Source of the DNA: Bacteroidota bacterium
GTDB taxonomy: Bacteria; Bacteroidota; Ignavibacteria; UBA10030; UBA8401
Length of the DNA stretch: 64,000 nt
Reading direction: 5' to 3'
NCBI GenBank assembly: GCA_021796215.1
Contig: JAJYOK010000004.1
Location: forward strand, 94,217-158,216
The notes beneath the pieces are model-generated. The model saw only the letters and a list, made by a program, of their open reading frames with translations. It made no database searches and was not told the DNA's origin. This document shows, one piece after another, positions 35,989 through 51,308 of the stretch. The position numbers and the translations under genes were made by a program. Numbering within the stretch: the stretch's first letter is position 1; every line of letters starts with the position of its first letter.

Positions 35989-36924
35989 ATGAGATTTATA
36001 CCTGCGCTAATTAGCGTTATGTTTTTATCGGCAGTTACATTAGCTGCAACCATAAAGCCCCCTTCGACAAAGGAGACTAATCAATATTGTTTTAGATGTC
36101 ATTCGATGGCGACCCTTTCTTACAGGGATGAAGCAACGGGAATAATTAAAAGCCTGTCGGTCAACCCTGAAGAATTTTACAATTCAAATCATAAGAATCT
36201 TGCATGCATTGCATGCCATTCAAAAGACTTTAAAAATTTTCCGCACGATGTAACGCTTAACAATGAAAATCTTTATTGCCTGAATTGTCATAAAGATGAA
36301 CCTAAGTTTCAGAAGTTTCATTTTCACAACATCGAAAGCACGTTTAAGGAAAGCGTTCATTATAAAAAGATGGGCGATAAATTTACATGTTTCGATTGTC
36401 ATGACCCGCATAGCTTTAAAATAAACGCAAGAGTAAACCGGGAAATTAAAGAAACCGTTCTCTACGATAATCATATTTGTTTGAAGTGCCATGACAACAC
36501 TTCAACGATCAAAAATTTATCGGGACAGCTTTTACCCGCTTTGAATATTGCTCATTCATGGCTGCCTCATATTAGCCTGCACTGGAAATCGGTTCGATGC
36601 ATTGACTGTCATACCTCTCCTAATGCACCCGGCGTTAGCCATTTAATTTTATCCAAAGAGCACGCAGTGAAAAATTGTGTTGAATGCCATTCGAAAAATT
36701 CAATTTTACTTCAGTCGCTCTACAAGTTTCAAACGAAGCGAGAAAGAGACAAAGAAGGTTTTATTAATGCTGTTATCTTGAACAACGCCTATGTCATTGG
36801 CGCCACTAGAAATTATTATTTGAATTTGCTCAGCTTCATCATTTTTGGAATAGTCATAGTTGCTCTCTCCGTCCATGGAATTTTACGATGGAAATCTCAT
36901 AAAGGAAATTTCGGTGAAAAGTAA
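35989..36924 (+). CDS. Heptahaem cytochrome c with C-terminal membrane anchor
   Basis: 311 residues. Signal sequence (FIPALISVMFLSAVTLAA), then seven CxxCH sites: CFRCH, CIACH, CLNCH, CFDCH, CLKCH, CIDCH and CVECH. A hydrophobic helix near the C-terminus (YLNLLSFIIFGIVIVALSVHGIL) fixes the haem domain to the inner membrane facing the periplasm. Its end overlaps the next gene by 11 bases. With the cytochrome b it could form a quinone-linked electron conduit like Geobacter Cbc complexes; that comparison is by gene composition, not by alignment. Several single His residues near the CxxCH sites could be distal ligands. Confidence 0.85.
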   Translation: MRFIPALISVMFLSAVTLAATIKPPSTKETNQYCFRCHSMATLSYRDEATGIIKSLSVNPEEFYNSNHKNLACIACHSKDFKNFPHDVTLNNENLYCLNCHKDEPKFQKFHFHNIESTFKESVHYKKMGDKFTCFDCHDPHSFKINARVNREIKETVLYDNHICLKCHDNTSTIKNLSGQLLPALNIAHSWLPHISLHWKSVRCIDCHTSPNAPGVSHLILSKEHAVKNCVECHSKNSILLQSLYKFQTKRERDKEGFINAVILNNAYVIGATRNYYLNLLSFIIFGIVIVALSVHGILRWKSHKGNFGEK

Positions 36925-37588
36925 GAAAGAATATTTTTACCCTGTCTGGCTGCGAACCTGGCACTGGCTTAATGCGCTGCTTTTCCTTTTGCTCATCTTT
37001 ACCGGCGTGAATATGCAGTATGCAAACATAAAATCCCCCCTTATTGAATTTCATTCCGCAGTAACATTACATAATGTTTCGGGTATAACTCTTACCCTCA
37101 ACTATCTGTTTTTTATCGTAGTGAATTTTATCTCTGGCAATTACAAGCAGTACATACCAACGCTTCAAAATTTCATTTCGAATTTAGTGCTGCAAACAAA
37201 TTTTTATTTGCATGGAATTTTTAAGAATGAAGAGCATCCTTTTAAAATTTCCAATAATCGAAAATTCAATCCGCTTCAACAATTTACCTATTTACAAATT
37301 ATGTACGCCGCAGTTCCGATCATGGTCATGACCGGGTGGGCATTACTCTTCCCGGAAGTTTTAATCAAACAGATGTTCGGTATTTCAGGATTAACATTAA
37401 CTGATATTGTCCATACAATCGGCGCATTCTTTCTGTCCGTTTTTATAATCGGACATATTTATCTCGCAACAACCGGCACTACTATTTTAATCAACTTCAA
37501 AGCTATGGTTACCGGCTGGCATTTTTCGCCGGATGAAGAATCAGAACCTCATATTTACTCAACTGAAGAGGCATCGAATGAAAAATAA
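36914..37588 (+). CDS. Di-haem cytochrome b (quinone-linked membrane subunit)
   Basis: 224 residues from the GTG at 36914, which has AAAGGA seven bases upstream and overlaps the previous stop by 11 bases; the longer ATG frame from 36860 is inside the cytochrome c gene. Four to five membrane helices. Histidines placed as haem ligands: WLRTWHWLNALLF, EFHSAVTLHNVSG and DIVHTIGAFFLSVFIIGHIYLATTG. This is the cytochrome b561/formate dehydrogenase gamma-like fold (PF01292-type). It would exchange electrons between the quinone pool and the two multihaem cytochromes encoded beside it. Confidence 0.85.
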   Translation: MKSKKEYFYPVWLRTWHWLNALLFLLLIFTGVNMQYANIKSPLIEFHSAVTLHNVSGITLTLNYLFFIVVNFISGNYKQYIPTLQNFISNLVLQTNFYLHGIFKNEEHPFKISNNRKFNPLQQFTYLQIMYAAVPIMVMTGWALLFPEVLIKQMFGISGLTLTDIVHTIGAFFLSVFIIGHIYLATTGTTILINFKAMVTGWHFSPDEESEPHIYSTEEASNEK

Positions 37589-39794
37589 ATATTTTAAAAT
37601 TCCAAAAACTAAAACCGGCAAACTCGCTTTCGCCCTTATTGTCATTATCGTGCTGGGTGGGATTTTTATGCAGGTTCTCTATGAGCCCTTATTCGAATGG
37701 TACACCGGAGTGAAAAACGGTACGCTAACATACGATTCGAGCATAAAACTTACCGACGAAGAATTTAACTCGCTTGCTGAAGATCTTACGTATCAAGACA
37801 GGCTACAGCGCGCCGAGGACATGACAAAGAATGAAACAGATCCGTTTACAAGAAAAGTTAAAATGGAAATACTGATGAACACTCCTTCGTTTATTCATCA
37901 GACTAAATTTGATCATATAAAATATTTCAGAGATGCCGGCATTCGTCAATATAAAGGACCTGAAACTTGCTTACAATGTCACGAAGATATTAGCGTTCGT
38001 CATTCCGATGGCTCAACGGAAAAAGTAAACACAATGGATGATATTGTTAACTCTGTTCACTTCCAATTCCAGCGGAGAGCGGCGGGATTTTCTACTTACG
38101 GGTTCAATGGCAAACAAGTAAATAAAAACACTCGACCGATTCCCGTCGGCAAAATAGATCGCGCTTGCGGAATTCCCGGTAGCTTTTCATGGACAGGCTG
38201 GGCTGATTTAATTAAAACTAAACCTGATAGTCTTCATGGAAAAATTCTTCTTAGAAGTGAGGGCTGTGGACAATGCCACATCGGCGGCAATTATCAGCCT
38301 GCGACTGAAGATATGATGCCCTTCGGCGAGGTGCCTTTATCTGCAAAAGAAGGAATTGATTGCCTTATCTGTCACTCTCAAAGCTATGATATGAATGAAA
38401 AATATGTTATACAGGATGCAATCGGGTTAAGATGGAATGAAGATCGAAGCATGAAAGCAGCAATGACTGTTACAAAGCCGACAAATACTAATTGCTTGTA
38501 CTGCCATCAACATAATTTTGGCGGAGATACTTATTCCGGGAATGTAGCCGCTCATAATTTAGGATATAAAAATCCGCGCATCCTTCATGCGGGCGCTAAA
38601 CGCGGCATGCCTTTTAGTCCCGAAGAAGATGTCCATGCCGCTGCGGGAGTTCAATGCATAGATTGCCATGTTCCCGAAGGGCATAAAATTCCCCGTGGAA
38701 CCAAAGGCACCGATTTGGTCGCTAATGATTTACCTGATAAACCAGTCGCGTGCGAAAACTGCCATACATCGGCGCCGCATACTAAAAATGAATTGGAACG
38801 CGTTATACTGAACGGACATGTTGCTCGCGTCGCGTGCGAAACTTGCCACATTCCATATTTAAGAGATGATAATGTTGTTCTAAGAGATTGGGTGCATTCA
38901 ACTTATAACAAAGAAGAAGGTATGTATGTGTACACAGACATACTAAAATCCGGTGAGCCTGATATTGGCTTTAATTATTTTTGGTACAACGGCAACGGAA
39001 CTTTTCTTGCCGGCGCTTTAGGCAATAACCCGAATAAATCTGATCGTTACGACCCTCTGATGAATCAAATGACAAACATAACCAACTCCACTGCTCTGGC
39101 TGAAATTAGAAATAATGTTAAAAATGATTTTAATATGGATGAAGCGCAAGCGGAAAAATATATGCTTGCAGTTACCAATACCCTTTCACAGCTTTCTCCC
39201 GGAATGGTTGCGGAAAGAGAAAAAGATATTACTGAACATTTAACCTCAATCGGCAATCTTGGCGACAGCAAAATATATCCGTTCAAATTATTTAACGCAT
39301 ATATGTACGAAGACATGTCTAACCAAGGCCCGTTCGGCGCAATGATACTTCCATTTGATTATCCGACTTATTATGAAACCGGCAACTCGCTTGAGGCAAT
39401 GAAGACGGCAATCAAAAATCCGATCATTAAAAGGATGTATCAATATCCATTTAAAAAATATATGATGGATGACTTTATGGGGTATTTCGGCGTCAAAACA
39501 TGGTCTGATGTTTATCCGATTGATAACAAAGGAAATCTAAGAAACATTGAGCCTCACTGGATGAGGCAGTTCGGTACATTGATGCTAAATCATTCGATAA
39601 AGAAAGAAGGGCTTGCCTGCGCATCATGCCATTCGCCACACGGAGTGCTCGATTTCAAAGAGCTTGGCTATTCAGCGGAAAGGATAAAAGATTTAACGCA
39701 TCTTAAAGAACTAAAATACTTTAAGACAAGACCTTCGGATGAAAAAACCATCAAGCCGCGGGATAAAAAGAGACGAAGGCAAATTAGCTTTTAA
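37578..39794 (+). CDS. Membrane-anchored octahaem cytochrome c
   Basis: 738 residues from the ATG at 37578 (overlaps the cytochrome b stop by 11 bases). An N-terminal uncleaved-looking helix (LAFALIVIIVLGGIFMQVLY) is followed by eight CxxCH sites: CLQCH, CGQCH, CLICH, CLYCH, CIDCH, CENCH, CETCH and CASCH. The block RSEGCGQCHIGG..KEGIDCLICHSQSYDM resembles octahaem tetrathionate-reductase-type cytochromes, which reduce sulfur or nitrogen oxyanions; the assignment is tentative. The C-terminal ~170 residues carry one haem (LACASCHSPHGVLDFKELGY). A periplasmic terminal oxidoreductase fed by the cytochrome b is the likely role. Confidence 0.8.
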   Translation: MKNKYFKIPKTKTGKLAFALIVIIVLGGIFMQVLYEPLFEWYTGVKNGTLTYDSSIKLTDEEFNSLAEDLTYQDRLQRAEDMTKNETDPFTRKVKMEILMNTPSFIHQTKFDHIKYFRDAGIRQYKGPETCLQCHEDISVRHSDGSTEKVNTMDDIVNSVHFQFQRRAAGFSTYGFNGKQVNKNTRPIPVGKIDRACGIPGSFSWTGWADLIKTKPDSLHGKILLRSEGCGQCHIGGNYQPATEDMMPFGEVPLSAKEGIDCLICHSQSYDMNEKYVIQDAIGLRWNEDRSMKAAMTVTKPTNTNCLYCHQHNFGGDTYSGNVAAHNLGYKNPRILHAGAKRGMPFSPEEDVHAAAGVQCIDCHVPEGHKIPRGTKGTDLVANDLPDKPVACENCHTSAPHTKNELERVILNGHVARVACETCHIPYLRDDNVVLRDWVHSTYNKEEGMYVYTDILKSGEPDIGFNYFWYNGNGTFLAGALGNNPNKSDRYDPLMNQMTNITNSTALAEIRNNVKNDFNMDEAQAEKYMLAVTNTLSQLSPGMVAEREKDITEHLTSIGNLGDSKIYPFKLFNAYMYEDMSNQGPFGAMILPFDYPTYYETGNSLEAMKTAIKNPIIKRMYQYPFKKYMMDDFMGYFGVKTWSDVYPIDNKGNLRNIEPHWMRQFGTLMLNHSIKKEGLACASCHSPHGVLDFKELGYSAERIKDLTHLKELKYFKTRPSDEKTIKPRDKKRRRQISF

Positions 39795-39854: not shown

Positions 39855-42800
39855 TTAAAAATTTTTCTTCAGCCGCCTCAACGCTTGACCGACAACTTGT
39901 GCAACCGCTTCTCTTTTTCTCTTTCTATCGGCTTCTGAGACAGCCCGGTATTGCACCTTGACCCGATACCCTTTGATTCGCTGTTCGCCACCTGCTTCCT
40001 GTGCCAATTGTTCATCAAGAAATAAAAATAACTCTTCCGGTTCAAAGAAGAGCACCTTCGATTGTTCATCTGCCGGGAGCTTCTCGGTTACCAATCTTTT
40101 AACAGCCTCGAGATTCTTTTTCTCAGATGAACATACAATGATTGTGTCATATCCGGCCCGGAGGCACTTCTCTATATTATGAAGCTCCTGCACATCGCCA
40201 GTCGTCACTGAAATCTCACACGCGATCCGTCTCCCATCTCGCTCAAGACCGACATCCACTCTTCCGCCATCCGATGTCGGTTCTTCAATCACCGCACGAT
40301 AGCCTCTTTGCTCAGCCATTTTCTTGATGAGCGTCTGAAGGTAGCGATGACGCGACACATCCTGACGAGGGGCTGACTCTGTTACAAATGTAAGTTCGGG
40401 CTTCTCAATTGTTGTTGGGATATGTATTTCTTGTTTTGAATCGTCTTTAGCTTTTGGCAAAGGCACTACAACGGAAATGGGCGCTTGTTGAATGATTGGT
40501 GGTTCTTCCTTATATCCCAATTGTATTTCCCTTTTCTGATGTCCATATTTCGCGCGTGATCGTGCAATGATCGTTTCTCGCTTTCTTTGTGCTTCTTCAG
40601 AAGCCACGTGAGGCATCTCAAATGTCTTCAGATTGAAGTCATACTCTTTCCGCTCGACACGGGCGATCGCCTCTCCCACACCAAGATTTTGCAAATCGGT
40701 CGAATCAAAGAATGAGAATCCTGAACTCATTTTCTCCGCATCGAAATCCCCGAGACGGAAACAGATTCTGGTTGCCGGATTTGTGATCACAGAATTTGCC
40801 AGCGCTGTATTATACTCGAAAAGCTGACGCAGATCTTGATGAGCAGCCACCAATCCGAGCGACATCTTTCTCGAACTGACGAGCATTGTTGCGATGGATT
40901 GTGTGATAAAATTTTGAAATTCATCGAGATACAAAAAAAACGGCTCCCGTTCGCTCTGCACCTGCCGCGCCATGATGACCTGATATAGTTTAGAGACAAG
41001 AAGTGAACCCAACAAATGAGAGTTTTCCTCTCCAATCACACCTTGAGCAAGCTTCACGAGAAGAATTTTTCTTCCTCTGACGATTTCTTCAAGATCAAGC
41101 CCCGCTTTCTCTCCGACTATGTTCCGTATGATCTTGGGCCGTAAGAAAGCATCCAACCTTGTGAGTATGGAATTTTGAGAGCCGCTTCTCAGCGATGGAT
41201 ATTCCTTCTCCCAGAAGTATCTGATCTCGGCCTCACTGACAGAATGAAGAACCTGTCGTCTAAAATCTCCATCAATCAAAAAATGCCGCAAATCTATCAG
41301 CGTCATTTCTTCAGGATATTCAAGCATCGCCGCAATCGCATTCCCCAGCACTGTTGTCATCTGGTCTCCCCAGCTTGTCGCGAATCTTTGGAACAAACCT
41401 ACTAAGTCAGATGAAAGAACTGTCTTTTCAATTTCGGAGTGGGCTTGGAGGATGTTGAACCCAACCGGATATTCCGTATCGCCCGGATCGAAGAGAATCA
41501 CGTCGTCGAATCTGTTCTCAGGAACATGTTCTATGATGCGATCAATGAGATCGCCGTGCGGGTCGCAGAGACACACTCCGATCCCGGCTTTTATATCCTG
41601 ACAGATTAAATTTAGTAACAGCGTCGATTTGCCAGTGCCGGTCGAACCTAAGACATGAATATGCCTCAGCCGCTGGTCTGTGCTCAGGTTAACTGTTGTC
41701 AGTTTTCCCTCGTGAAGGTTTTTGCCAAGAACGTAGTTTCCATGTGCTGTGATTGCCGGTGGTGACTTGGTCTTGCGAGCACTCTTTCTTTTGAGTTTTC
41801 TCGATTGAACAGAGGCGGAAGGAAAATGGACGAAGCCCATCAACTCCTCGCTGTTAAGAATCGTCCCTGTGCGATGAGATTGACGAAGGATGACATCCTC
41901 GAAATGAACGTCACTATCATATCCGTCATTCGAGAGCGGAATCAGTTCATTGCTTGTCGGCTGTGCAAATGATGAAATGCCGCTTGCAAGTGATCGCGCA
42001 ATTTCCCATGCCCTATCTTCTGTTGAACTTTGTCCGATAATCCTCAGCACAACTGCATAAAGAGGGCGTTGAATTTTCTTCCGGGCAAGAGGAACCATCT
42101 CCGGTGCGTCGGCAAAGAAAGGATCACCGTATGCATCGGTCACAGAATGAAGAATGCTTTCTGCCCACGGATTCCTCATACTCTGAAAAATCACCTGCAG
42201 CAGCCCAGTATCTTGTGATGATAGACTATCCAACGCGGCAATGATGCCAAGCAACGGATCGGGATCAAGGCTTTGAAAAGTTTTCAAGGAACGCATGAAC
42301 TCATCGCTGAGACCAAAGTCAACAATCACAGTATGCTCGTTGCATAATGTCTGTGAAAGACCGACTCCTTCTTCTATCGTTGCGTCAGGAAAAACGGAGC
42401 GGATGTGGGATTCAACATACGGCCTGTCCGGTTCCCGGCAAGCGATCTGCAACTGGATGCTGCCCGATGCACCGACGATCTCATAACTCACTGGATAGTT
42501 GCAGGAACCTAAATTCAGAAGAAGCTGCTCGGCATACTCCGAAGGTATCTTTCGGTCGTGCGGAAGACTGATCCCAAGCTCGATGATGTCATCCTCATTC
42601 TCAAATGGTGCGGGAATTAGTTCTTCTTCCTCCAAAGGTATATTTGCAGAAGACTCTTCCGCTTTTCGGAATCCAGACTTTAACTCTTCAACAAGAGAGC
42701 TGAGGAACGTGGGCTTACTCCCATCATCAATCGGCGTTTGGAAAGAAGCATAAGCATGAACAAACGGCTCGAAGGGAGGTTCAAGCTCAACCAGGGAGTT

Positions 42801-42878
42801 CCACACATCCCAACCCCTCCCCCTCATCTCCCAGCGATACCAATGTGCGGTCAATGCCTCTGCGCTGAAGTCATTCAT
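39855..42878 (-). CDS. VirD4/HerA-like DNA-transfer ATPase with C-terminal PD-(D/E)xK-like domain
   Basis: 1007 residues. The N-terminal ~380 are a poorly conserved alpha/beta part. The motor domain has Walker A GSTGTGKST at 411-419, CDPHGDL and Walker B FLYLDEFQNF at 648-657, followed by a Q-rich sensor (AAHQDLRQL), as in TraD/VirD4 coupling proteins and HerA. A long linker leads to residues ~845-955, where GGRVDVGLERDG (D875) and ACEIS (E888-x-S890) resemble a PD-(D/E)xK nuclease core with Ser in place of the usual Lys. It ends with a basic tail KGYRVKVQYRAVSE. It probably translocates or processes DNA of a mobile element. A decayed copy of its tail lies at 25430-25609. The 182-residue protein is encoded four bases upstream. 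Confidence 0.82.
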   Translation of the reverse strand: MNDFSAEALTAHWYRWEMRGRGWDVWNSLVELEPPFEPFVHAYASFQTPIDDGSKPTFLSSLVEELKSGFRKAEESSANIPLEEEELIPAPFENEDDIIELGISLPHDRKIPSEYAEQLLLNLGSCNYPVSYEIVGASGSIQLQIACREPDRPYVESHIRSVFPDATIEEGVGLSQTLCNEHTVIVDFGLSDEFMRSLKTFQSLDPDPLLGIIAALDSLSSQDTGLLQVIFQSMRNPWAESILHSVTDAYGDPFFADAPEMVPLARKKIQRPLYAVVLRIIGQSSTEDRAWEIARSLASGISSFAQPTSNELIPLSNDGYDSDVHFEDVILRQSHRTGTILNSEELMGFVHFPSASVQSRKLKRKSARKTKSPPAITAHGNYVLGKNLHEGKLTTVNLSTDQRLRHIHVLGSTGTGKSTLLLNLICQDIKAGIGVCLCDPHGDLIDRIIEHVPENRFDDVILFDPGDTEYPVGFNILQAHSEIEKTVLSSDLVGLFQRFATSWGDQMTTVLGNAIAAMLEYPEEMTLIDLRHFLIDGDFRRQVLHSVSEAEIRYFWEKEYPSLRSGSQNSILTRLDAFLRPKIIRNIVGEKAGLDLEEIVRGRKILLVKLAQGVIGEENSHLLGSLLVSKLYQVIMARQVQSEREPFFLYLDEFQNFITQSIATMLVSSRKMSLGLVAAHQDLRQLFEYNTALANSVITNPATRICFRLGDFDAEKMSSGFSFFDSTDLQNLGVGEAIARVERKEYDFNLKTFEMPHVASEEAQRKRETIIARSRAKYGHQKREIQLGYKEEPPIIQQAPISVVVPLPKAKDDSKQEIHIPTTIEKPELTFVTESAPRQDVSRHRYLQTLIKKMAEQRGYRAVIEEPTSDGGRVDVGLERDGRRIACEISVTTGDVQELHNIEKCLRAGYDTIIVCSSEKKNLEAVKRLVTEKLPADEQSKVLFFEPEELFLFLDEQLAQEAGGEQRIKGYRVKVQYRAVSEADRKRKREAVAQVVGQALRRLKKNF

Positions 42879-42882
42879 GGCT

Positions 42883-43431
42883 TCACATTTTCTTCCTAAA
42901 GAGCTCGCGCATGATCGGTTTCCTCTCAGACTCGGACAATAACCGTAATCCCTGCCCCTTCATTTTTTGGTCCAATACTTCAACCACCGCCGAATGCACG
43001 CTGTCTTGAAACATTAATGCCGTGTCAATTCTGTAAAAGGTCTCGGGGCGAAACATCGTGATCAAGAGCGGACCGAGAAGAGGAATATTGCTGATCACTG
43101 AGCTCGGTATCTCGCCAAGCCACCATGATACAAAGAAGTCTTTGCCGAATGGTGCCGCACAGACGTGAAATACATATTCACGCCGGCTGATCAGGAGATA
43201 CATCCGCTTTGCCGAGGCAATTCCACCCTCATGGAAATGTTCTACCCACACTTTCACATCCGGGATTTTCCTCACGTCGATTAATCCGTCAACCTCTTCA
43301 TAGAAGTCTTCGACGGAAACCCGAAGCCCTTGAACGAGATGATGCCAGTGAGAGATAATGACGGGTTTTCTCTTCCTAATGAGGATGAGGAAAAGCAATA
43401 GAAGAAATAAGAGGGTAAGGAATGTAAGCAT
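42883..43431 (-). CDS. Membrane-anchored hypothetical protein, partner of the DNA-transfer ATPase
   Basis: 182 residues. One N-terminal membrane helix (FLTLLFLLLLFLILI) followed by a basic stop-transfer (RKRKP) and a soluble alpha/beta domain with VKVWVEHFHEGG and DFFVSWWLGEIP. It ends four bases before the ATPase start, so the two proteins are co-expressed and may interact, for instance to hold the ATPase at the membrane. I do not recognise the family beyond this recurring arrangement. Confidence 0.65.
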   Translation of the reverse strand: MLTFLTLLFLLLLFLILIRKRKPVIISHWHHLVQGLRVSVEDFYEEVDGLIDVRKIPDVKVWVEHFHEGGIASAKRMYLLISRREYVFHVCAAPFGKDFFVSWWLGEIPSSVISNIPLLGPLLITMFRPETFYRIDTALMFQDSVHSAVVEVLDQKMKGQGLRLLSESERKPIMRELFRKKM

Positions 43432-43779: not shown

Positions 43780-44064
43780 ATGCAGAAAATACCAACAAAC
43801 ATCCACCATCTCTTCTGGGACATTAATATAGAGACATTTGAGCCGCACGACTACCCCCGCTATACAATCAGCCGGGTGCTTGAATTCGGTGACGAGGCAG
43901 CGACACGATGGCTGAAAGAAGTGTTTTCCGAATCGGAGATCAAGAGCGTTCTCAGGGCAGACAACAGGCTTTCTCCCCGTTCAGCAAACTTCTGGGCAAT
44001 CATGTTCGGCATCCCTCTCAACGAAATTGCCGCATTAAAAAGCAACGAAGGGAGCGCCGTATGA
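43780..44064 (+). CDS. Antitoxin of an AbiEii-type toxin-antitoxin pair (DUF6922-like)
   Basis: 94 residues. The N-terminus HHLFWDINIETFEPHDYPRYTISRVLEFGDEAATRWL is the typical opening of short proteins annotated DUF6922 that precede AbiEii/AbiGii toxins. The ATG at 43780 is chosen because of AAAGAGG six bases before it; an upstream TTG at 43765 is less likely. Its stop overlaps the toxin start as ATGA, so the antitoxin is translated first and coupled with the toxin. It probably autoregulates the pair; not shown here. Confidence 0.8.
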   Translation: MQKIPTNIHHLFWDINIETFEPHDYPRYTISRVLEFGDEAATRWLKEVFSESEIKSVLRADNRLSPRSANFWAIMFGIPLNEIAALKSNEGSAV

Positions 44065-44726
44065 ACCCAAACAAGCTCGTGTGGCATGAAGAGATCCTTC
44101 CTTCCTTATCGAGCGAGGTGCTCGGCGATCTTCAGCGAACGCTTCCTCTGTCACTGTTTTATCTTGGAGGGGGAACAGGTTTGGCACTGATGTTCGGTCA
44201 CCGCCTTTCCCGTGATTTCGACTTCTTCAGCGCTGCTCTGTTCGATGAGGAGGCACTGATACAAAAAATGCAGGGCGTGGATGATCTTACCATTGTCGCA
44301 AAGGATGAGCATACGCTTCATCTTACCGTGAAAGAGATCAAGGTGAGCCTCCTCGGCTACCGCTATTCCCTCCTTTTTGAGACAAAGAATTATCACTCTG
44401 AATCCGGCATATCCATCAATGTCGCCGATGAGAGAGATATTGCATGCATGAAGATGAGTGCAATCAGCAGCCGCGGGAGCAAGCGGGATTTTATGGACTT
44501 GTATATCGTTGCCCGTGAGTATGGCTTGTCTGAACTCGTCACCTTGTTCCAGAAGAAATTCTCCGGGACACCCTATAACAACGTTCATCTGTTCAAGTCG
44601 CTCACGTATTTTGCCGATGCTGAAACAGAGCCGATGCCACACATGCTCATTCCTCTGTCATGGGATGCGGTGAAACAATTTTTTACAACTGAGGTTCCAC
44701 GATTAATGTCATCCTCGTCACAATGA
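44061..44726 (+). CDS. AbiEii/AbiGii-family nucleotidyltransferase toxin
   Basis: 221 residues. The signature LGGGTGLALMFGHRLSRDFDFFS (given in parts: GGGTGLAL and HRLSRDFDFF) is the nucleotidyltransferase core of this family, with the two Asp that bind metal. DIACMKMSAISSRGSKRDFMDLYIV is the second conserved helix. Family members act as toxins by modifying tRNA or other targets with NTPs, and the pairs can give abortive phage resistance. The start is ATG at 44061 overlapping the antitoxin stop; the longer frame from 43908 is a shadow. A strong terminator follows. Confidence 0.9.
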   Translation: MNPNKLVWHEEILPSLSSEVLGDLQRTLPLSLFYLGGGTGLALMFGHRLSRDFDFFSAALFDEEALIQKMQGVDDLTIVAKDEHTLHLTVKEIKVSLLGYRYSLLFETKNYHSESGISINVADERDIACMKMSAISSRGSKRDFMDLYIVAREYGLSELVTLFQKKFSGTPYNNVHLFKSLTYFADAETEPMPHMLIPLSWDAVKQFFTTEVPRLMSSSSQ

Positions 44727-45110: not shown

Positions 45111-46553
45111 ATGCATTTCGCTGTTTTAGATTGGGTAATATTTGTATCGGTGCCATTAGTGGCGTGGTTTATTGGAAACGCCAAAAGGCAAGCTGGAACA
45201 TGGCGTGGTTACTTTTTAGCCACAGGAAATCTACAAACAAAAACGGTGGTAGCAACGTACTTTGGAGCAAACCTTGCGTTCACCGCGATTTTTCTAATTT
45301 TATCTGAAGAAGGTTATGATCGGGGCGCGTGGGCATTTTCGGTCCCAATATTCTGGTTCATTGGTACACTGGTTTTTTTGTGGCTATACCCCAAAATGCG
45401 TGAATATATAAGAGAGGGATTGACGCTCCATCAAGCGATTGGAAGTGGTTTTTCTTCACCATCATTACAGCGATGGGCATCGCTATGGACAATACTTGCG
45501 TTTGTTGGAACCTGTGCACTCGAATTTTATGGTGGTATTAAATTGTTGGAATGGGCTGGACTGCCGCTTATGGCAAACATATCAATTGCTCTTCTACTAG
45601 CCCTCATCGTAACTGCGTTCACCGTAACTGGGGGCTTCCGGGGCGTTGCATGGTCAGATATTTTCCTTGACCTAACTGCGCTTACAGCAACAGTAATCCT
45701 GTTCTTGTATTTTTTATCAGCAAAATCAGCGTCTGCATTGCACTTTCCCACTCCACATCTTCCAATTCATACATTTACAGATAATATAATATTTGCAATC
45801 GGAATGGCTCTGATATTCATTCCTTTTCAGTTTTGCACACTCGATAGCTGGCAAAGATTAGGGGCATGGGAGCGGCGCGGTAAAAATCCATCGTCTTGGT
45901 TATTAACTGGATCGCTACTTCTTTCAGTATGTTATTGTGTCCCAATATTGATTGGCATATATGTTAGAAATATTCAAATAGCTGTTCCTATAGGCAGCCA
46001 TCCTTTAAAAGTTTTTATGGATTACATCCATTTAACGCCAGGATTAATGGGACTGGTCTTTGCTGGTTTTATAGCGGCTGTATTCTCGACAGTTGACGAA
46101 CTACTAAATTGCTCAAGCTTGTCACTTCTCTTTGATACTTTACAAAATAAGCGCGTAGATCCCCAACGCACACAAAAACAAGAAGGAGCGTTGGTCAAAT
46201 CAGGCAAGTTGTATACTGCTGGTTTTGGCTTTATTGCTGCGCTAATATCTCTGCTCGCACTTTCATATGAGAGACAAATTTCCGATCTAGCACTTGCAGT
46301 ATTTTCTGGACAAGTTGTGTTTACACTCCCTTTGTTCGTTATATTCTTTTATCGTAGTTCTGCACCACATTGGGCCCAAACAGCAAAGTTTAGCATGCTA
46401 CTTGCATTTTTTGTTTCCTTGCTAACAGTGATTATTGGATGGGCGACAGGCGATCAGTCTACAACCGATGCTGCGCCCCTAGTTGGTTTTTTGTTTGCAC
46501 TCATAACCTTTATTATTGGCTCGTTGTTTATTAAAAGAGAGGCAGAACATTGA
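45111..46553 (+). CDS. Sodium:solute symporter family transporter
   Basis: 480 residues with about 13 membrane helices, as usual for the SSS/LeuT-fold family. Supporting segments are WRGYFLATGNLQTKTVVATYFGANL (the family's helix-1 region, quoted in part), AFTVTGGFRGVAWSDIFLD, FCTLDSWQRLGAWERRG and GLVFAGFIAAVFSTVDELLNCSS, the last matching the conserved (M/F)SSxDSxLN-like Na+ site region. It imports an unknown solute with sodium. No Shine-Dalgarno is evident. It is the first of three plus-strand genes lying between minus-strand mobile-element genes. Confidence 0.85.
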   Translation: MHFAVLDWVIFVSVPLVAWFIGNAKRQAGTWRGYFLATGNLQTKTVVATYFGANLAFTAIFLILSEEGYDRGAWAFSVPIFWFIGTLVFLWLYPKMREYIREGLTLHQAIGSGFSSPSLQRWASLWTILAFVGTCALEFYGGIKLLEWAGLPLMANISIALLLALIVTAFTVTGGFRGVAWSDIFLDLTALTATVILFLYFLSAKSASALHFPTPHLPIHTFTDNIIFAIGMALIFIPFQFCTLDSWQRLGAWERRGKNPSSWLLTGSLLLSVCYCVPILIGIYVRNIQIAVPIGSHPLKVFMDYIHLTPGLMGLVFAGFIAAVFSTVDELLNCSSLSLLFDTLQNKRVDPQRTQKQEGALVKSGKLYTAGFGFIAALISLLALSYERQISDLALAVFSGQVVFTLPLFVIFFYRSSAPHWAQTAKFSMLLAFFVSLLTVIIGWATGDQSTTDAAPLVGFLFALITFIIGSLFIKREAEH

Positions 46554-46762: not shown

Positions 46763-47509
46763 ATGAATTCAGTAGAACCAGTGCCATCACTTAATCAAAA
46801 AATAAACGACCTTTTTTCTACTCGGTTGCTTCTGCGTTTTTGTATGGAACTGCAAACTGATGTTCAGGAGAGGCAGAATCTATTTTCTCACCTTACGAAG
46901 CTTCAGCGATCTATCTACGACCTTGATACATACGGTGAACAAACATGGAATTTGGACAAGACTCATCTTAGCATTCTATGGAATGATATCAATGCGTCTC
47001 TTTCTGCGTTCGGGTTTGACAAAAACATTATGCGTCAATTACTCTCAGACATTCATTCATTCCAAGAAATTGAAGAACAATTGAGACTGGGAAATCTGCC
47101 AACAAAAAATCCAATCGAAATGTTTTATCACTTCAAAACTTGTGATGTGAGAATGTCACGTCAGATTCTCGTGGCTCACTCAAAAAAAATTAATTCACCG
47201 CCTATTCTTTATCTATGGAATTTATTTGATCTGGCAAGCGAAGTACTTGATGATCTATTAGACATCGATGAAGATATTACTACCTTCAATGGAAATCGTT
47301 ACTTGCTTTCAAGCATAAGTCAAAGTACAGACTCAACAAACAAAGAATACCTTTCTTTTTTGAAAGAACTTGGAAAGCAAGCCACTTTAGCTGGGAACGC
47401 AAGAATGGCAACCATTATTCTGAGCAAGATTGATGAATCTATCTTGCTGCTAAAAAAAGTAGATAGGCAGCTAATAAAATATGAGTTTACGGTTTTACCC
47501 GTAATATGA
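46763..47509 (+). CDS. All-helical protein with a squalene/phytoene-synthase-like aspartate motif
   Basis: 248 residues, predicted all-alpha. Residues ~150-182 read LWNLFDLASEVLDDLLDIDED followed by GNRYLLS. This matches the shape of the second aspartate-rich motif of squalene/phytoene synthases and other class I isoprenoid enzymes (D-x2-D-x2-ED-x4-GxRYL). A possible first motif is the KTCDVRMSRQ segment near 126-135, but it is weak. So a class I prenyl-transfer fold is possible; function is unknown. AAAGGT lies close to the ATG. It is encoded between the symporter and the K+ channel. Confidence 0.5.
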   Translation: MNSVEPVPSLNQKINDLFSTRLLLRFCMELQTDVQERQNLFSHLTKLQRSIYDLDTYGEQTWNLDKTHLSILWNDINASLSAFGFDKNIMRQLLSDIHSFQEIEEQLRLGNLPTKNPIEMFYHFKTCDVRMSRQILVAHSKKINSPPILYLWNLFDLASEVLDDLLDIDEDITTFNGNRYLLSSISQSTDSTNKEYLSFLKELGKQATLAGNARMATIILSKIDESILLLKKVDRQLIKYEFTVLPVI

Positions 47510-47629: not shown

Positions 47630-48421
47630 ATGGATGGTAGTCTGGCTCCTGAGAAAAATTCAATCAATTCTTCACGTAACTGCGTTTCTGTTGGGGAGAG
47701 GGTTATCAATGTTGTGGTAGGTATTTTCCATCCCGTCCTAGCTCTTATCGTACTACTATGTCTTGTAGTGAAAAGTAGTTTCAATTATGCTTCCCTTCTT
47801 ACTCCTAAAAAAGCTCTTCTGTATCAATTCCTTGGATTGGCAACACCTATCGCGCTTTGGGCTTTTATACTCAGCCCACTTGAACACCCTGGCCAAGGTT
47901 GGAATATTGTTGTTGTAATTTTCTCAACTTGGTGCGGCCTATTCTTATTGCATTCTTTCTTGACAATGCTGTTTCGCTACGGGGACATAATTAGCCCACA
48001 AGAAGACCGTATTTTTGCGGGGCTTCCATCTTTGCAATTGGTAGTAGGTTCCGCCGGCAGCATCCAAAATTTTAACCCCTCAAAACGTCTTAAGCTCATG
48101 GGAGAAACCATTCTCAGTTATCTAATGATCATCTTATGTTTTTCAGTTATATATGATTGTCTTTACACTGTTCATCCATTTTATTTCCATGTTCCCGAAG
48201 ACTTATGCAAAAACAGTGCCTCTTATTCTGATTTTATATATTTCAGCTTTGTTACGACAGCCACAGTCGGCTATGGTGATTTTTATCCCTTAAGTACATC
48301 TATTCGCTGGCTAACAGTGTCACAAATAGTGTTTACGCTTACATATTTTCCACTTATCGTTACCGGCTTTCTTGAATCGCTACGAGTAGTTAAAAATAAG
48401 GACTCAAGCAATGAAAAATGA
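47630..48421 (+). CDS. Two-pore-helix type potassium channel family protein
   Basis: 263 residues. Three hydrophobic segments in the first ~115 residues, then one helix (ILSYLMIILCFSVIYDCLY), a pore loop with the selectivity filter TVGYGD at 212-217 (FSFVTTATVGYGDFYPLS), and a last helix (LTVSQIVFTLTYFPLIVTGF). The filter is canonical for K+ channels. No ligand-binding domain is attached. GAGGG lies six bases before the ATG. It could change membrane potential under stress; small K+ channels as effectors are known in some defence systems, but nothing here shows that role. Confidence 0.85.
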   Translation: MDGSLAPEKNSINSSRNCVSVGERVINVVVGIFHPVLALIVLLCLVVKSSFNYASLLTPKKALLYQFLGLATPIALWAFILSPLEHPGQGWNIVVVIFSTWCGLFLLHSFLTMLFRYGDIISPQEDRIFAGLPSLQLVVGSAGSIQNFNPSKRLKLMGETILSYLMIILCFSVIYDCLYTVHPFYFHVPEDLCKNSASYSDFIYFSFVTTATVGYGDFYPLSTSIRWLTVSQIVFTLTYFPLIVTGFLESLRVVKNKDSSNEK

Positions 48422-48490: not shown

Positions 48491-48973
48491 CTATCTCACC
48501 CCCCCCACCGCCACCGCATCAAACATATTCCTGAAATAAAGCTCCTTCCACCGTTTGTCCGAAGTGAGATATGGAAGAAGCTCAGGATATTGTCCAACTA
48601 ACACTCGTGCGACATCGTCTTTGCCAGCTGCGCCGTTGCCACAGATTTGTTTTCTCACCGTGTTTGTTGCGATAACAGTTACCCTCAATCGTTTCTTTCT
48701 CCCGAGCGAAATGATCTCTCTGACAAATTTATTCAGCAGCCGCGCACTTTTGTTCTTTGCAAAATATGTTTGCTCAATCGTCAGCACATTCGGTCGAAAA
48801 TCTCCCAGAAGGCGAAGTATGGTCCCTTTCCCTTCTTTCAATTTCCCTTCAGCAGATTTTCCATCGTCAATCGTCTTCACTCCATAATGGATCAACGCTT
48901 TCCCTTCGAGCAAGGCGAACCCGATATATCTTGTTCCGGGGTCAATTGCAAGAACTCTCGTTTTCTTTTTCAT
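48491..48973 (-). CDS. RuvC-like Holliday-junction nuclease
   Basis: 160 residues, RNase H fold. Catalytic acids typical of RuvC are present: D11 in VLAIDPGTRYIGFAL, E67 in VLTIEQTYFAKN, the D119/D120 pair in AAGKDDVARVL and D152 in MFDAVAVGG. It should cut branched DNA, here probably of the mobile element rather than being the housekeeping RuvC, since ruvA/ruvB are not nearby. It is the last gene of the operon that starts with the XRE regulator and follows the DNA methyltransferase by 21 bases. Confidence 0.85.
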   Translation of the reverse strand: MKKKTRVLAIDPGTRYIGFALLEGKALIHYGVKTIDDGKSAEGKLKEGKGTILRLLGDFRPNVLTIEQTYFAKNKSARLLNKFVREIISLGRKKRLRVTVIATNTVRKQICGNGAAGKDDVARVLVGQYPELLPYLTSDKRWKELYFRNMFDAVAVGGVR

Positions 48974-48994
48974 AAATATTATTTCAGCAAAAGC

Positions 48995-49570
48995 CTATCC
49001 GACCTTTTTGAACAGCGACAATAACCGGACACGATGATTCGTCGAGCGGACAACGCAGATCAGTCCGCAGAGATGCCACTCGGTCTTCCTGAACATCGGC
49101 AGCATTGTATCAAGCCATCCAAGATATCCGTCATTACGCAAAACGCTCCAGCACTCTCTTAAAATTTTTGACCTATTGATCATGACAGTTCCATACCTCT
49201 TCGCATCCTCGGCGCTATAGGGAGGATCAGCCAGTATGAAATCGAACGATTCACGTGCAAAGTGTTGAGAAAGTTTCTCTGCTTCACCAACGACATCGGG
49301 GGTGAGTAAAACGTTGCAGTCGAAACGGACATAGTTCCCTTGAGGAAGTGACCCACTGAAAAGATGAAGCGCTTTTTCGGCATCAGGAAATAATGCATTC
49401 ACTCGCTTCAAATACCCAGGCGGATAGGCACCATAGAATCCATTCCCCTTGTAGTTATTGCCGAGCAGCCAGACACCACTTAGCCAACGGCCGTCAGCAA
49501 AAAGAGGCGGATATGTTGGAAATGCTTTCGTGTAAAATTGTGCTCTCTCGACAAGTGAATAGTCTTTCAT
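48995..49570 (-). CDS. DNA adenine/cytosine-N4 methyltransferase
   Basis: 191 residues from the ATG at 49570, which overlaps the upstream stop as ATGA. The catalytic motif IV is FDFILADPPYSAEDAKRYG (DPPY), and ALHLFSGSLPQGNYVRFDCN is the SAM-binding motif I region (FSGS in place of FxGxG), so the order is the gamma/beta-like class. The C-terminal part (GYLGWLDTMLPMF..EWHLCGLICVVRSTNHRVR) completes the sheet. No restriction nuclease is adjacent, so it looks like an orphan modification enzyme inside a mobile-element operon, flanked by two RuvC-like genes. Confidence 0.85.
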   Translation of the reverse strand: MKDYSLVERAQFYTKAFPTYPPLFADGRWLSGVWLLGNNYKGNGFYGAYPPGYLKRVNALFPDAEKALHLFSGSLPQGNYVRFDCNVLLTPDVVGEAEKLSQHFARESFDFILADPPYSAEDAKRYGTVMINRSKILRECWSVLRNDGYLGWLDTMLPMFRKTEWHLCGLICVVRSTNHRVRLLSLFKKVG

Positions 49571-50157
49571 TGCTGAGTGTGTAAGCGAATTTTCTGACCT
49601 TTTGAATCCACATCGTTCCAACAGACAGTGCCCAAAGCGACAGCTTCAAACATCCGTATGAGGTAAGGGTTCTTGTGTTTGCGCTCCCGCTCGAGTTCAC
49701 GGTGTAGATAGGGATAACGGAGAGCGACTTCATCCATCAAGCATTTCTTGTTGAGCCTTCCGCTTGAGATAAGCTTTTGTTTAATCTCGTCGATCGAATA
49801 CTCCACGATTTTTCTTTTCCTCACCTGTGCTAATGTTGTTATTATTGAGACGAGGCTGCTAAGTGCAGACGAGGTTCGTGAGGGATGGAGTTGCTTTAGC
49901 GCAACAATTGTGATGGAGTGAACGTCGAGATACTCCGAAATAATGGATTTGATTTCTTTTTTCTTTTCAGCAACTGAAAATCCGCCATGCTTTTGCGCCA
50001 AAGGCGCATCAGCCTTCGGTTGAATCTTTTGGCGGAGCGGCTTTGTTGAGAGAACCTTCGTTGTCCACTCGCGTAAATCTGAGTTGTGAAACACTGCGAC
50101 GCCGAAATAACGCGACCCGGGATTAATAGCGAGAATGTTATGACTGTTTTTCCCCAT
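49567..50157 (-). CDS. RuvC-like protein with substituted catalytic acids
   Basis: 196 residues with clear similarity to the 160-residue RuvC encoded downstream: NILAINPGSRYFGVAVF equals VLAIDPGTRYIGFAL, and RMFEAVALG equals NMFDAVAVG. The catalytic positions differ: N12 for D11, K88 (IVALKQLH) for E67 and E171 for D152. It may therefore bind branched DNA without cutting it, or be a regulatory partner. Residues ~46-59 (QPKADAPLAQKHGG) are encoded by a palindromic element. The start overlaps the winged-helix gene by 20 bases and its stop overlaps the methyltransferase start. Confidence 0.75.
   Translation of the reverse strand: MGKNSHNILAINPGSRYFGVAVFHNSDLREWTTKVLSTKPLRQKIQPKADAPLAQKHGGFSVAEKKKEIKSIISEYLDVHSITIVALKQLHPSRTSSALSSLVSIITTLAQVRKRKIVEYSIDEIKQKLISSGRLNKKCLMDEVALRYPYLHRELERERKHKNPYLIRMFEAVALGTVCWNDVDSKGQKIRLHTQQ
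49981..50036. repeat. Palindromic element in frame inside the RuvC-like gene
   Basis: Outer TCCGCC (49981-49986) and GGCGGA (50031-50036) enclose the perfect palindrome TGCGCC-AAA-GGCGCA (49994-50008). The same TGCGCC-N3-GGCGCA and TCCGCC/GGCGGA blocks occur in the RHS insertion at 54275-54325. The reading frame stays open. Confidence 0.65.
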
Positions 50158-50878
50158 AGTGGTGAAGAAGATAGGTAAACAGAGCGACGCGGCTTTTTTT
50201 GATTCTTTGATCAGGTGTTTGCTTCACTTGAGAAAGAGCCGTTCTCAGTATCTCTTCCGGGTATCGCTCTGTGTAGGCAAGGTATCTTTTGATGTTCTCC
50301 TGATCTTTTAGCGATGTTGCGATATCGAAAGCGAGAAGTTCTTTTCTTGTTTTTGGTTGAAAACCGTTAGGAATGTTTTCAGTCGAAGGCTGATCAGCCC
50401 TTGGCTGACTCTCTTGCACATAAACAATATTGTTCTTAGATCTCGATACCTTTGTATTGTTAGTGTCCACCGGTGCACCATGTGAGTTGCGTGCATGCGA
50501 CAGATTGATTGCATCAGTGAACCTTTCAATACTCAGAAGATGATAGATAGCGTGATGCTTTTCAGCCGCAGGTCGCGAAGGATGGCGCCATAGGCGCCAC
50601 TGATCAGCTTGTAGCGGAGCTTCTTTTGTCGCTTCAATCAGTCGCTGCTCCACAAGCCTTATAATTGCCCGTGAAATAGACGAGCGCGAACAGCCAAGAT
50701 GATCGGCTATATATGCCTGAGAAGGAAAGCATTTCTGTTTCTCATCCACCATGCTCGCAAGAAAATGGTACACGCATATCGCTAAGAAGCCGGTTCTCGG
50801 CACATAGTCGCGAATGACTCTTTTCGACACCCAATACCACCCGCCGTCATGGATGTCTCTTGAATTGTTACTGCTCAT
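50138..50878 (-). CDS. Winged-helix DNA-binding protein (replication/plasmid-type)
   Basis: 246 residues. The N-terminal ~100 residues are a winged helix of the kind in phage and plasmid replication initiators: TGFLAICVYHFLASMVD, CFPSQAYIADHLGCSRSSISRAIIRLVEQRLIEA (helix-turn-helix, quoted in parts). The C-terminal part is polar and helical (LKDQENIKRYLAYTERYPEEILRTAL). Two palindromic stretches (50388-50408, 50583-50607) encode ADQ-type insertions. The start overlaps the XRE gene by 11 bases and the end overlaps the RuvC-like gene by 20, which is typical of compact mobile-element operons. It may start replication or regulate the operon. Confidence 0.75.
   Translation of the reverse strand: MSSNNSRDIHDGGWYWVSKRVIRDYVPRTGFLAICVYHFLASMVDEKQKCFPSQAYIADHLGCSRSSISRAIIRLVEQRLIEATKEAPLQADQWRLWRHPSRPAAEKHHAIYHLLSIERFTDAINLSHARNSHGAPVDTNNTKVSRSKNNIVYVQESQPRADQPSTENIPNGFQPKTRKELLAFDIATSLKDQENIKRYLAYTERYPEEILRTALSQVKQTPDQRIKKSRVALFTYLLHHYGEKQS
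50388..50408. repeat. Double palindrome GGCTGATCAGCC-CTT-GGCTGA
   Basis: The perfect 12-base palindrome GGCTGATCAGCC is followed by CTT and GGCTGA, so TCAGCC can also pair with GGCTGA. It lies in frame within the winged-helix gene (protein SQPRADQPS). Confidence 0.55.
50583..50607. repeat. Palindromic element TGGCGCC-ATA-GGCGCCA-CTGATCAG
   Basis: A seven-base perfect inverted repeat with a three-base loop joined to the palindrome CTGATCAG, within the winged-helix gene right after the HTH. It codes QADQWRLWRH, very like SASLWRLRRH encoded by the RHS insertion at 54275-54325. Confidence 0.65.
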
Positions 50879-51185
50879 CGAATGATTGCTTCTCTTCGGC
50901 GTGACTCTTTCTAACGTCGAATATTTCTTTTTCCCGAAGATGGATTTCTTCTCTCACCTTTTCGAGGAGATCAATGAAAAGCGCGTCAACCATTGTTCTA
51001 TAGAGAACGGCGAGACGAAAAAGGTTTGTGATGTTCGGGAAGCATTCCCCTTTCTCCCAGCGGGAAATACGACTGCTGCTTTTGAGTCCCAGAACGTTTG
51101 CAACATCCTTTTGTGAGTAACCTGAGATGCGACGATATTTTCTCAGGCAGTTCGGGACTCGTTTTGAATGTGCTGTGATGGTCAT
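50868..51185 (-). CDS. XRE-family transcriptional regulator
   Basis: 105 residues from the ATG at 51185; the longer frame to 51284 is not supported. The helix-turn-helix is CLRKYRRISGYSQKDVANVLGLKSSSRISRWEKGE (quoted as RRISGYSQKDVANVLGL plus RISRWEKGE), the usual Cro/CI/XRE layout, followed by a helical tail ending in a charged stretch. It is the first gene of the overlapping minus-strand operon and is divergent from a small plus-strand frame, so it is probably the switch of the mobile element. No ligand domain is visible. Confidence 0.8.
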   Translation of the reverse strand: MTITAHSKRVPNCLRKYRRISGYSQKDVANVLGLKSSSRISRWEKGECFPNITNLFRLAVLYRTMVDALFIDLLEKVREEIHLREKEIFDVRKSHAEEKQSFDEQ

Positions 51186-51308
51186 AATATTCAGCTTACC
51201 AAGCGAGGAAAGCAGAAAATAAGAGTGGAGAATTTGTCGGAAGAGGCAAATGAGGAAGCGAAAAAGATCGGCATGATACAACATGCCAAGACGGTTAAAG
51301 CCCAGTGA
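51168..51308 (+). CDS. Candidate 46-residue small protein divergent from the XRE regulator
   Basis: An open frame too short for usual calls: MCCDGHNIQLTKRGKQKI, then ENLSEEANEEAKKIG and a basic end KTVKAQ, stop TGA at 51306-51308. It is supported by an intrinsic terminator that overlaps its stop and by its divergent position next to the XRE gene. A GTG at 51225 with GAGGAAAG upstream could give a 27-residue version instead. No ribosome site precedes the ATG. It could be a Cro-like or antirepressor peptide, or the transcript may be a non-coding RNA. Confidence 0.35.
   Translation: MCCDGHNIQLTKRGKQKIRVENLSEEANEEAKKIGMIQHAKTVKAQ

Follow-up and report, generated by a model that had tools for sequence, protein, structure and literature searches.

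A RuvC-like protein without its catalytic acids and its dispensable, catalytic-like neighbor in the operon of apparently integrative, often defence-carrying islands

What could a RuvC protein be for once its catalytic residues have been replaced? The question is raised by an operon in the 64,000-nt stretch of Bacteroidota DNA analyzed here (the window), in which two RuvC-like genes lie close together. One, termed N-type, has lost catalytic acids, while the other, termed D-type, has kept most of them. An earlier note on this DNA had proposed that they are a structural and a catalytic RuvC flanking a DNA methyltransferase and acting with DNA methylation in a mobile element. The genes, in their order along the minus strand, are as follows.

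50868-51284, minus strand: XRE-type HTH regulator, the first gene of the operon; its true start may lie further downstream.
50138-50878, minus strand: winged-helix protein (HTH_36); its C-terminal domain is conserved, and by PHROGs it resembles replication initiators and helicase loaders of phages.
49567-50157, minus strand: RuvC-like protein of the N-type, 196 aa, with N12, K88, R168 and E171 at the catalytic positions; K137 is kept.
48995-49570 (ATG at 49570), minus strand: DNA methyltransferase with a DPPY motif (PHROG 3816, E 2.8e-54).
48491-48973, minus strand: RuvC of the D-type, 160 aa, with D11, E67, N149 and D152 at the catalytic positions.

The 4- and 20-base overlaps reported earlier are both real, but only the former (49567-49570, between the N-type and methyltransferase genes) falls in the stretch from N-type to D-type. 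The 20-base overlap joins the N-type gene to the winged-helix gene, and the methyltransferase and D-type genes are separated by 21 bases. The open reading frames and the residues named in that note (N12, K88 and E171 upstream; D11, E67 and D152 downstream) are as it described. It had left out one catalytic position, an Asp in host RuvCs but Arg (R168) in the N-type and Asn (N149) in the D-type; calling the downstream protein intact was thus an overstatement, although its other three acids are present.

By profile comparison and structure prediction, both proteins are RuvC folds. The single N-type sequence reaches only 0.0017 against Pfam RuvC; the profile of its family matches the chains of the solved P. 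aeruginosa (7e-7) and E. coli (1.1e-6) RuvC structures, and its AlphaFold2 model (mean pLDDT 87) retrieves RuvC structures first in Foldseek (6lw3, E 6.8e-9, TMt 0.76). The D-type matches Pfam RuvC (PF02075) at 9.6e-13, and the top Foldseek matches of its model (mean pLDDT 89) are likewise RuvC. For both models RuvC is followed by Ydc2, TEFM and MOC1. Against the NCBIfam RuvC equivalogs TIGR00228 and NF000711 the D-type scores 42 and 46 bits, far below the cut-offs of 100.65 and 163, which marks it as a RuvC-like relative rather than an orthologue of the host RuvC.

The fate of the N-type active site can be followed in an alignment of 18 distinct N-type proteins from several phyla (24-62% identity). 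In 17 tabulated sequences the four catalytic columns read N/V/I/S, K, R/V/A/K and E. The Lys that replaces E66 (K88) and the Glu that replaces D141 (E171) are invariant in 18/18 N-types, as is K137, which aligns with E. coli Lys118. No N-type has a carboxylate at the D7 site, and the set of catalytic acids that makes a RuvC resolvase is absent. Invariance of the Lys at the second and the Glu at the fourth catalytic site argues for a degenerate site that is maintained rather than decaying, and their opposition at the former metal site suggests that a K88-E171 salt bridge may have replaced the metal. With all active-site acids but one lost, the N-type might be taken for a decaying duplicate devoid of function. 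This is scarcely credible and already contradicted, since the gene is intact in 18 loci across phyla, the replacement residues do not vary and D-only cases are lacking.

In D-types the same columns, which are D7, E66, D138 and D141 in canonical RuvC, read D, E, N, D in 12/12 complete sequences, against D, E, D, D in host RuvCs. RuvC proteins are known to carry either Asp or His at the third catalytic position (PMC3834835), so that Asn alone does not exclude activity, and the D-type may be regarded as a catalytic-like RuvC of predicted activity. Set beside bacterial RuvC (PF02075; 1hjr, 6lw3, 4ld0), both proteins share the RNase H-like RuvC fold and the lysine aligned with Lys118, and the D-type keeps the Asp, the Glu and the last Asp. 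They differ in that the N-type has no carboxylate at positions 1-3, the D-type has Asn at position 3, and the two genes occur as a tandem in islands, not with ruvA or ruvB.

N-types are rare. Relatives of the window's N-type sequence occur in 3 of 295 other genomes in a sample of the phylum, and the family profile finds 7 strong genomes among 294 in a sample of the class. GTDB contigs, when scanned, contribute further N-types from Kryptoniota, Scalindua, Anammoxibacter, Deltaproteobacteria, Syntrophaceae, Nitrospira, Bacteroidetes, Aerophobetes and an actinomycetotal fragment, all from metagenome bins in which a single taxon label may be wrong. One bin labelled Anammoxibacter (G523; 7.6 Mb, possibly mixed) holds two N/D operons (L082, L083; L numbers denote loci and G numbers genomes). 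No N-type was found in 50,697 phage records, in plasmids or in scans of viral contigs, and a phage or plasmid origin of the module was rejected on that ground.

A D-type adjoins the N-type in 13 of the 18 loci: the window, L012, L013, L046 (=L051), L047, L048 (=L056), L052, L053, L054, L057, L059, L060 (cut by a contig end) and L082. The remaining five (L014, L015, L049, L055, L058) carry the N-type without an adjacent D-type, and in their genomes the D-type profile matches nothing but the N-type and, in those that have one, the host RuvC. Among the 294 genomes of the class sample no intact D-type occurs without an N-type. Two incomplete D-types lack a visible N-type: that of L091 is cut by a contig edge, and that of L092 is a fragment. 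Both are followed by two further genes of the islands, which encode the small SHWHH protein and a large ATPase. The non-catalytic N-type is the constant partner, and the D-type is the dispensable one. The proposal of a catalytic and a structural RuvC paired in a mobile element holds insofar as the two are conserved as adjacent genes; an obligate pair is too strong a claim, given five elements with the non-catalytic protein only and no D-type elsewhere in their genomes. At L092 a 62-residue open frame (6443-6628) is what remains of the D-type beside SHWHH and the ATPase; upstream, in the expected place of the remaining operon, lies a large secreted-type gene.

In a tree rooted at its midpoint, which leaves the order of duplication unproven, host RuvC (support 100/100), N-types (99/98) and D-types (92/89) form three separate groups. 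The proteins of N-only loci are scattered across the N-type clade, from which it appears that the D-type was probably lost more than once, the exact number being blurred by weak support of the inner branches. Pairwise distances of N and D correlate over 12 pairs (r=0.60, Mantel p=2e-4).

The methyltransferase sits between N and D only in the window. It was found there in 0 other loci examined, tblastn did not locate it elsewhere near the module in other loci, and the phage collection held no match. We take it for an inserted or cargo gene outside the conserved unit, and its absence from every other N/D locus examined led us to reject it as part of that unit. The idea that it works with the RuvC pair, methylation marking the branched DNA of the element, could draw on its translational coupling into the operon through the 4-base overlap with the N-type gene. 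As a general arrangement it is contradicted by the same absence, and we consider it very improbable. Recurrence in other genomes had been set beforehand as the test of the trio: the trio does not recur, while the N/D pair does, in several phyla.

Across loci the conserved operon consists of the XRE, winged-helix, N-type and D-type genes, and the fate of the winged-helix protein is tied to that of the D-type. The winged-helix domain and the conserved C-terminal domain are both encoded in 13/13 paired loci. Of the N-only loci, three encode the C-terminal domain by itself, in a protein of 79 residues, and the other two, L055 and L058, lack both domains. The winged-helix domain is thus lost in 5/5 loci without a D-type as opposed to 0/13 with one, and the presence of the D-type goes with that of a DNA-targeting domain. 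The protein of L057 has an unusual N-terminal half, and at L052 (9341-10035) the gene is split into two ORFs, an N-terminal HTH and the C-terminal domain, with N and D intact.

N/D neighborhoods also carry SHWHH and an ATPase of about 1,000 residues with a T4CP/HerA-like core. In the window, the rest of the island reads as follows.

39855-42878, minus strand: large ATPase, T4CP (TrwB_AAD_bind)/HerA-like core; PADLOC mad8 match at 2.3e-20.
42883-43431, minus strand: small, conserved membrane protein of the SHWHH family, hydrophobic near its N terminus and matched by no Pfam family; its gene goes with the N-type across genomes.
43780-44064, plus strand: cargo, DUF6922 protein, partner of the AbiEii-like gene; the same cargo pair is found in L048.
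44061-44726, plus strand: cargo, AbiEii-like nucleotidyltransferase, its start inferred from homologues; ~70% identical copies in the L048 and L091 islands.
45111-46553, plus strand: cargo, SSF transporter, between D-type and SHWHH.
46763-47509, plus strand: cargo, ORF of no named family, between D-type and SHWHH.
47630-48421, plus strand: cargo, ion channel, between D-type and SHWHH.

SHWHH occurs in 9 of the 294 class genomes, including six of the seven with a strong N-type (hypergeometric 7e-10, an indicative figure because genomes are not independent draws). In G333 and at one G039 locus, SHWHH and its ATPase are replaced by another membrane-like protein and by a relative of the ATPase. 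Genome G483 contains, besides a full island, an SHWHH and ATPase pair (L094:12255-15799) with no N-type within ~12 kb, which indicates that the ATPase module can exist alone. At the ATPase end of the window's island, genes for a multihaem cytochrome (CxxCH motifs in the ORFs) and a cytochrome b-like protein adjoin (35989-39794).

The cargo varies by locus and includes Avs2 (L014), CBASS (L049), a PADLOC candidate (L052), RM (L053), a PglX-like gene (L055), an AriA-like gene (L058), AbiEii with DUF6922 (the window, L048) and AbiEii (L091). A serine or tyrosine recombinase adjoins the operon in eight loci (L014, L015, L049, L054, L055, L058, L059, L082), and at L052 and L082 a tyrosine recombinase is followed by a tRNA gene. 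Recombinases beside the operon together with defence cargo support mobility. No recombinase was seen in the window, so that this copy of the island may be immobile. Searches of the flanks yielded no convincing att direct repeats, including at the tRNA-adjacent integrases of L052 and L082, and no relaxase was present among the proteins scanned, a part of the islands' ORFs. ComM/YifB-like (Mg-chelatase) genes at or near islands (L048:10798-12336 and L015:14167-15225) are a possible insertion target. We favor the view that N and D are part of the core operon of an island family that had no label before, is integrative and often carries defence genes, and has SHWHH with the T4CP/HerA-like ATPase as its other constant module. 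Alternatively, the whole set from XRE through winged-helix, N, D and SHWHH to the ATPase could itself be an anti-phage system and not the core of a mobile element, given that the loci lie among defence genes and that the ATPase matches mad8 and, weakly, HerA-type defence ATPases. This seems unlikely, as versions with N alone lack a nuclease, the operon has recombinases next to it in eight loci, and PADLOC matches neither N, D nor SHWHH; moreover, known defence genes vary from island to island, as cargo does, whereas the XRE-to-ATPase set is constant.

Which task might the two RuvC-like proteins carry out in such an element? Our preferred, if tentative, answer is that N serves the element's DNA-processing complex as a RuvC subunit that binds DNA without catalysis, with D as an accessory catalytic partner, the two possibly forming an N:D heterodimer. 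The N-type would be a pseudonuclease with a RuvC fold, a Lys/Glu pair in place of the metal site and one DNA-contacting Lys kept, and would act as the structural, junction-binding and obligatory subunit. Cutting would fall to the D-type, provided that the winged-helix protein is there. RuvC dimerizes through helices A and B (PMC3834835), and N and D would most likely pair through these RuvC dimer helices into a junction-bound complex with a single active site. As the two active sites of the RuvC dimer act independently (PMC2670506), such a complex would be expected to nick rather than resolve, and the winged-helix protein may target it to the origin or recombination site of the element. N and D are tied to each other by genetic linkage and correlated divergence; the heterodimer, the nicking, its target and a role in replication, excision or transfer are inferred. 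The strongest counter-evidence is the persistence of the N-type without a D-type in five loci, for N must then do something without D. The Asn at the third catalytic site of every complete D-type also counts against this account, as does the lack of a conserved, cruciform-like inverted repeat next to the operon as a target; inverted repeats that occur singly at a few loci are unlike each other, and some resemble terminators.

It is also quite possible, though we would not bet on it, that the two proteins act separately, D as a homodimeric resolvase of recombination or replication intermediates and N on its own as a scaffold or regulator that binds DNA, comparable to the pseudo-RuvC TEFM. Elements with N alone belong to more than one lineage, TEFM comes after the resolvases in the Foldseek results of either model, and at the position of E. 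coli F69 most D-types keep an aromatic residue, where N-types usually have His. Nevertheless, no intact D-type occurs without an N-type, the operon is tight, N and D diverge in a correlated manner, and the tandem is repeatedly conserved over large distances. The pseudonuclease core of TEFM clamps DNA (PMC9950373). Like the YqgF domains of Spt6-Tex, TEFM has a resolvase-like fold that has lost catalysis and taken on a structural, nucleic-acid-binding role; both are matched here by fold alone, with eukaryotic or transcription roles and no operon with a catalytic paralogue. Mus81-Eme1 and XPF-ERCC1, in which an active and an inactive paralogue act together on branched DNA, follow the same logic as the heterodimer that we prefer for N and D. 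They differ in fold, N also exists without D, and the heterodimer would be an inference here. Among phages, RuvC proteins (PHROG 159, e.g. Listeria P70 and lactococcal bIL67) are distant relatives of the D-type, at most ~30% identical, but have no N-type alongside in the phage and viral collections.

A more specific mechanism, which we consider rather doubtful, is that a dead/live RuvC heterodimer, guided by the winged-helix protein, makes a single-strand nick that starts replication of the element or its export through SHWHH and the T4CP-like ATPase. Such a nickase would stand in for a relaxase, which would account for islands without one, and N-only versions would borrow a host RuvC subunit. 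Actinomycete integrative elements (Rep, an FtsK-like TraB and an integrase) and T4CP-bearing mobilizable elements offer a lead, as they likewise combine an integrase, an initiator-like protein and a DNA-pump-like ATPase. The islands differ in that their T4CP/HerA-like ATPase comes with an SHWHH partner and the N/D RuvC pair, and transfer would here be conjecture. If the nickase reading were true, mobile defence islands of several phyla would use a RuvC-based nickase instead of a relaxase.

No match to inactive RuvC paralogues or to such islands was found in the open-access literature, a scope outside which most subscription journals lie, and within that literature neither the island family nor the reversed dispensability has been described. 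It is unusual for a resolvase pseudoenzyme to be kept across several phyla and its catalytic sister to be lost repeatedly, and this pattern opens the purpose of a dead RuvC to simple tests. The N-type gene could furthermore mark the members of this unlabelled family of mobile islands, which moves anti-phage systems between bacteria.

The window's N-type gene also contains a stretch of short palindromic repeat-like DNA in frame (49990-50062), seen in the protein as a 21-aa insert absent from all relatives. A related, shorter stretch lies in the winged-helix gene (50376-50416), and further partial copies occur at 54273-54295 of the window, on another contig of the same genome (L050; 87% over 54 bases) and at L086. 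It looks like a dispersed element of the REP/RPE type that is tolerated within ORFs.
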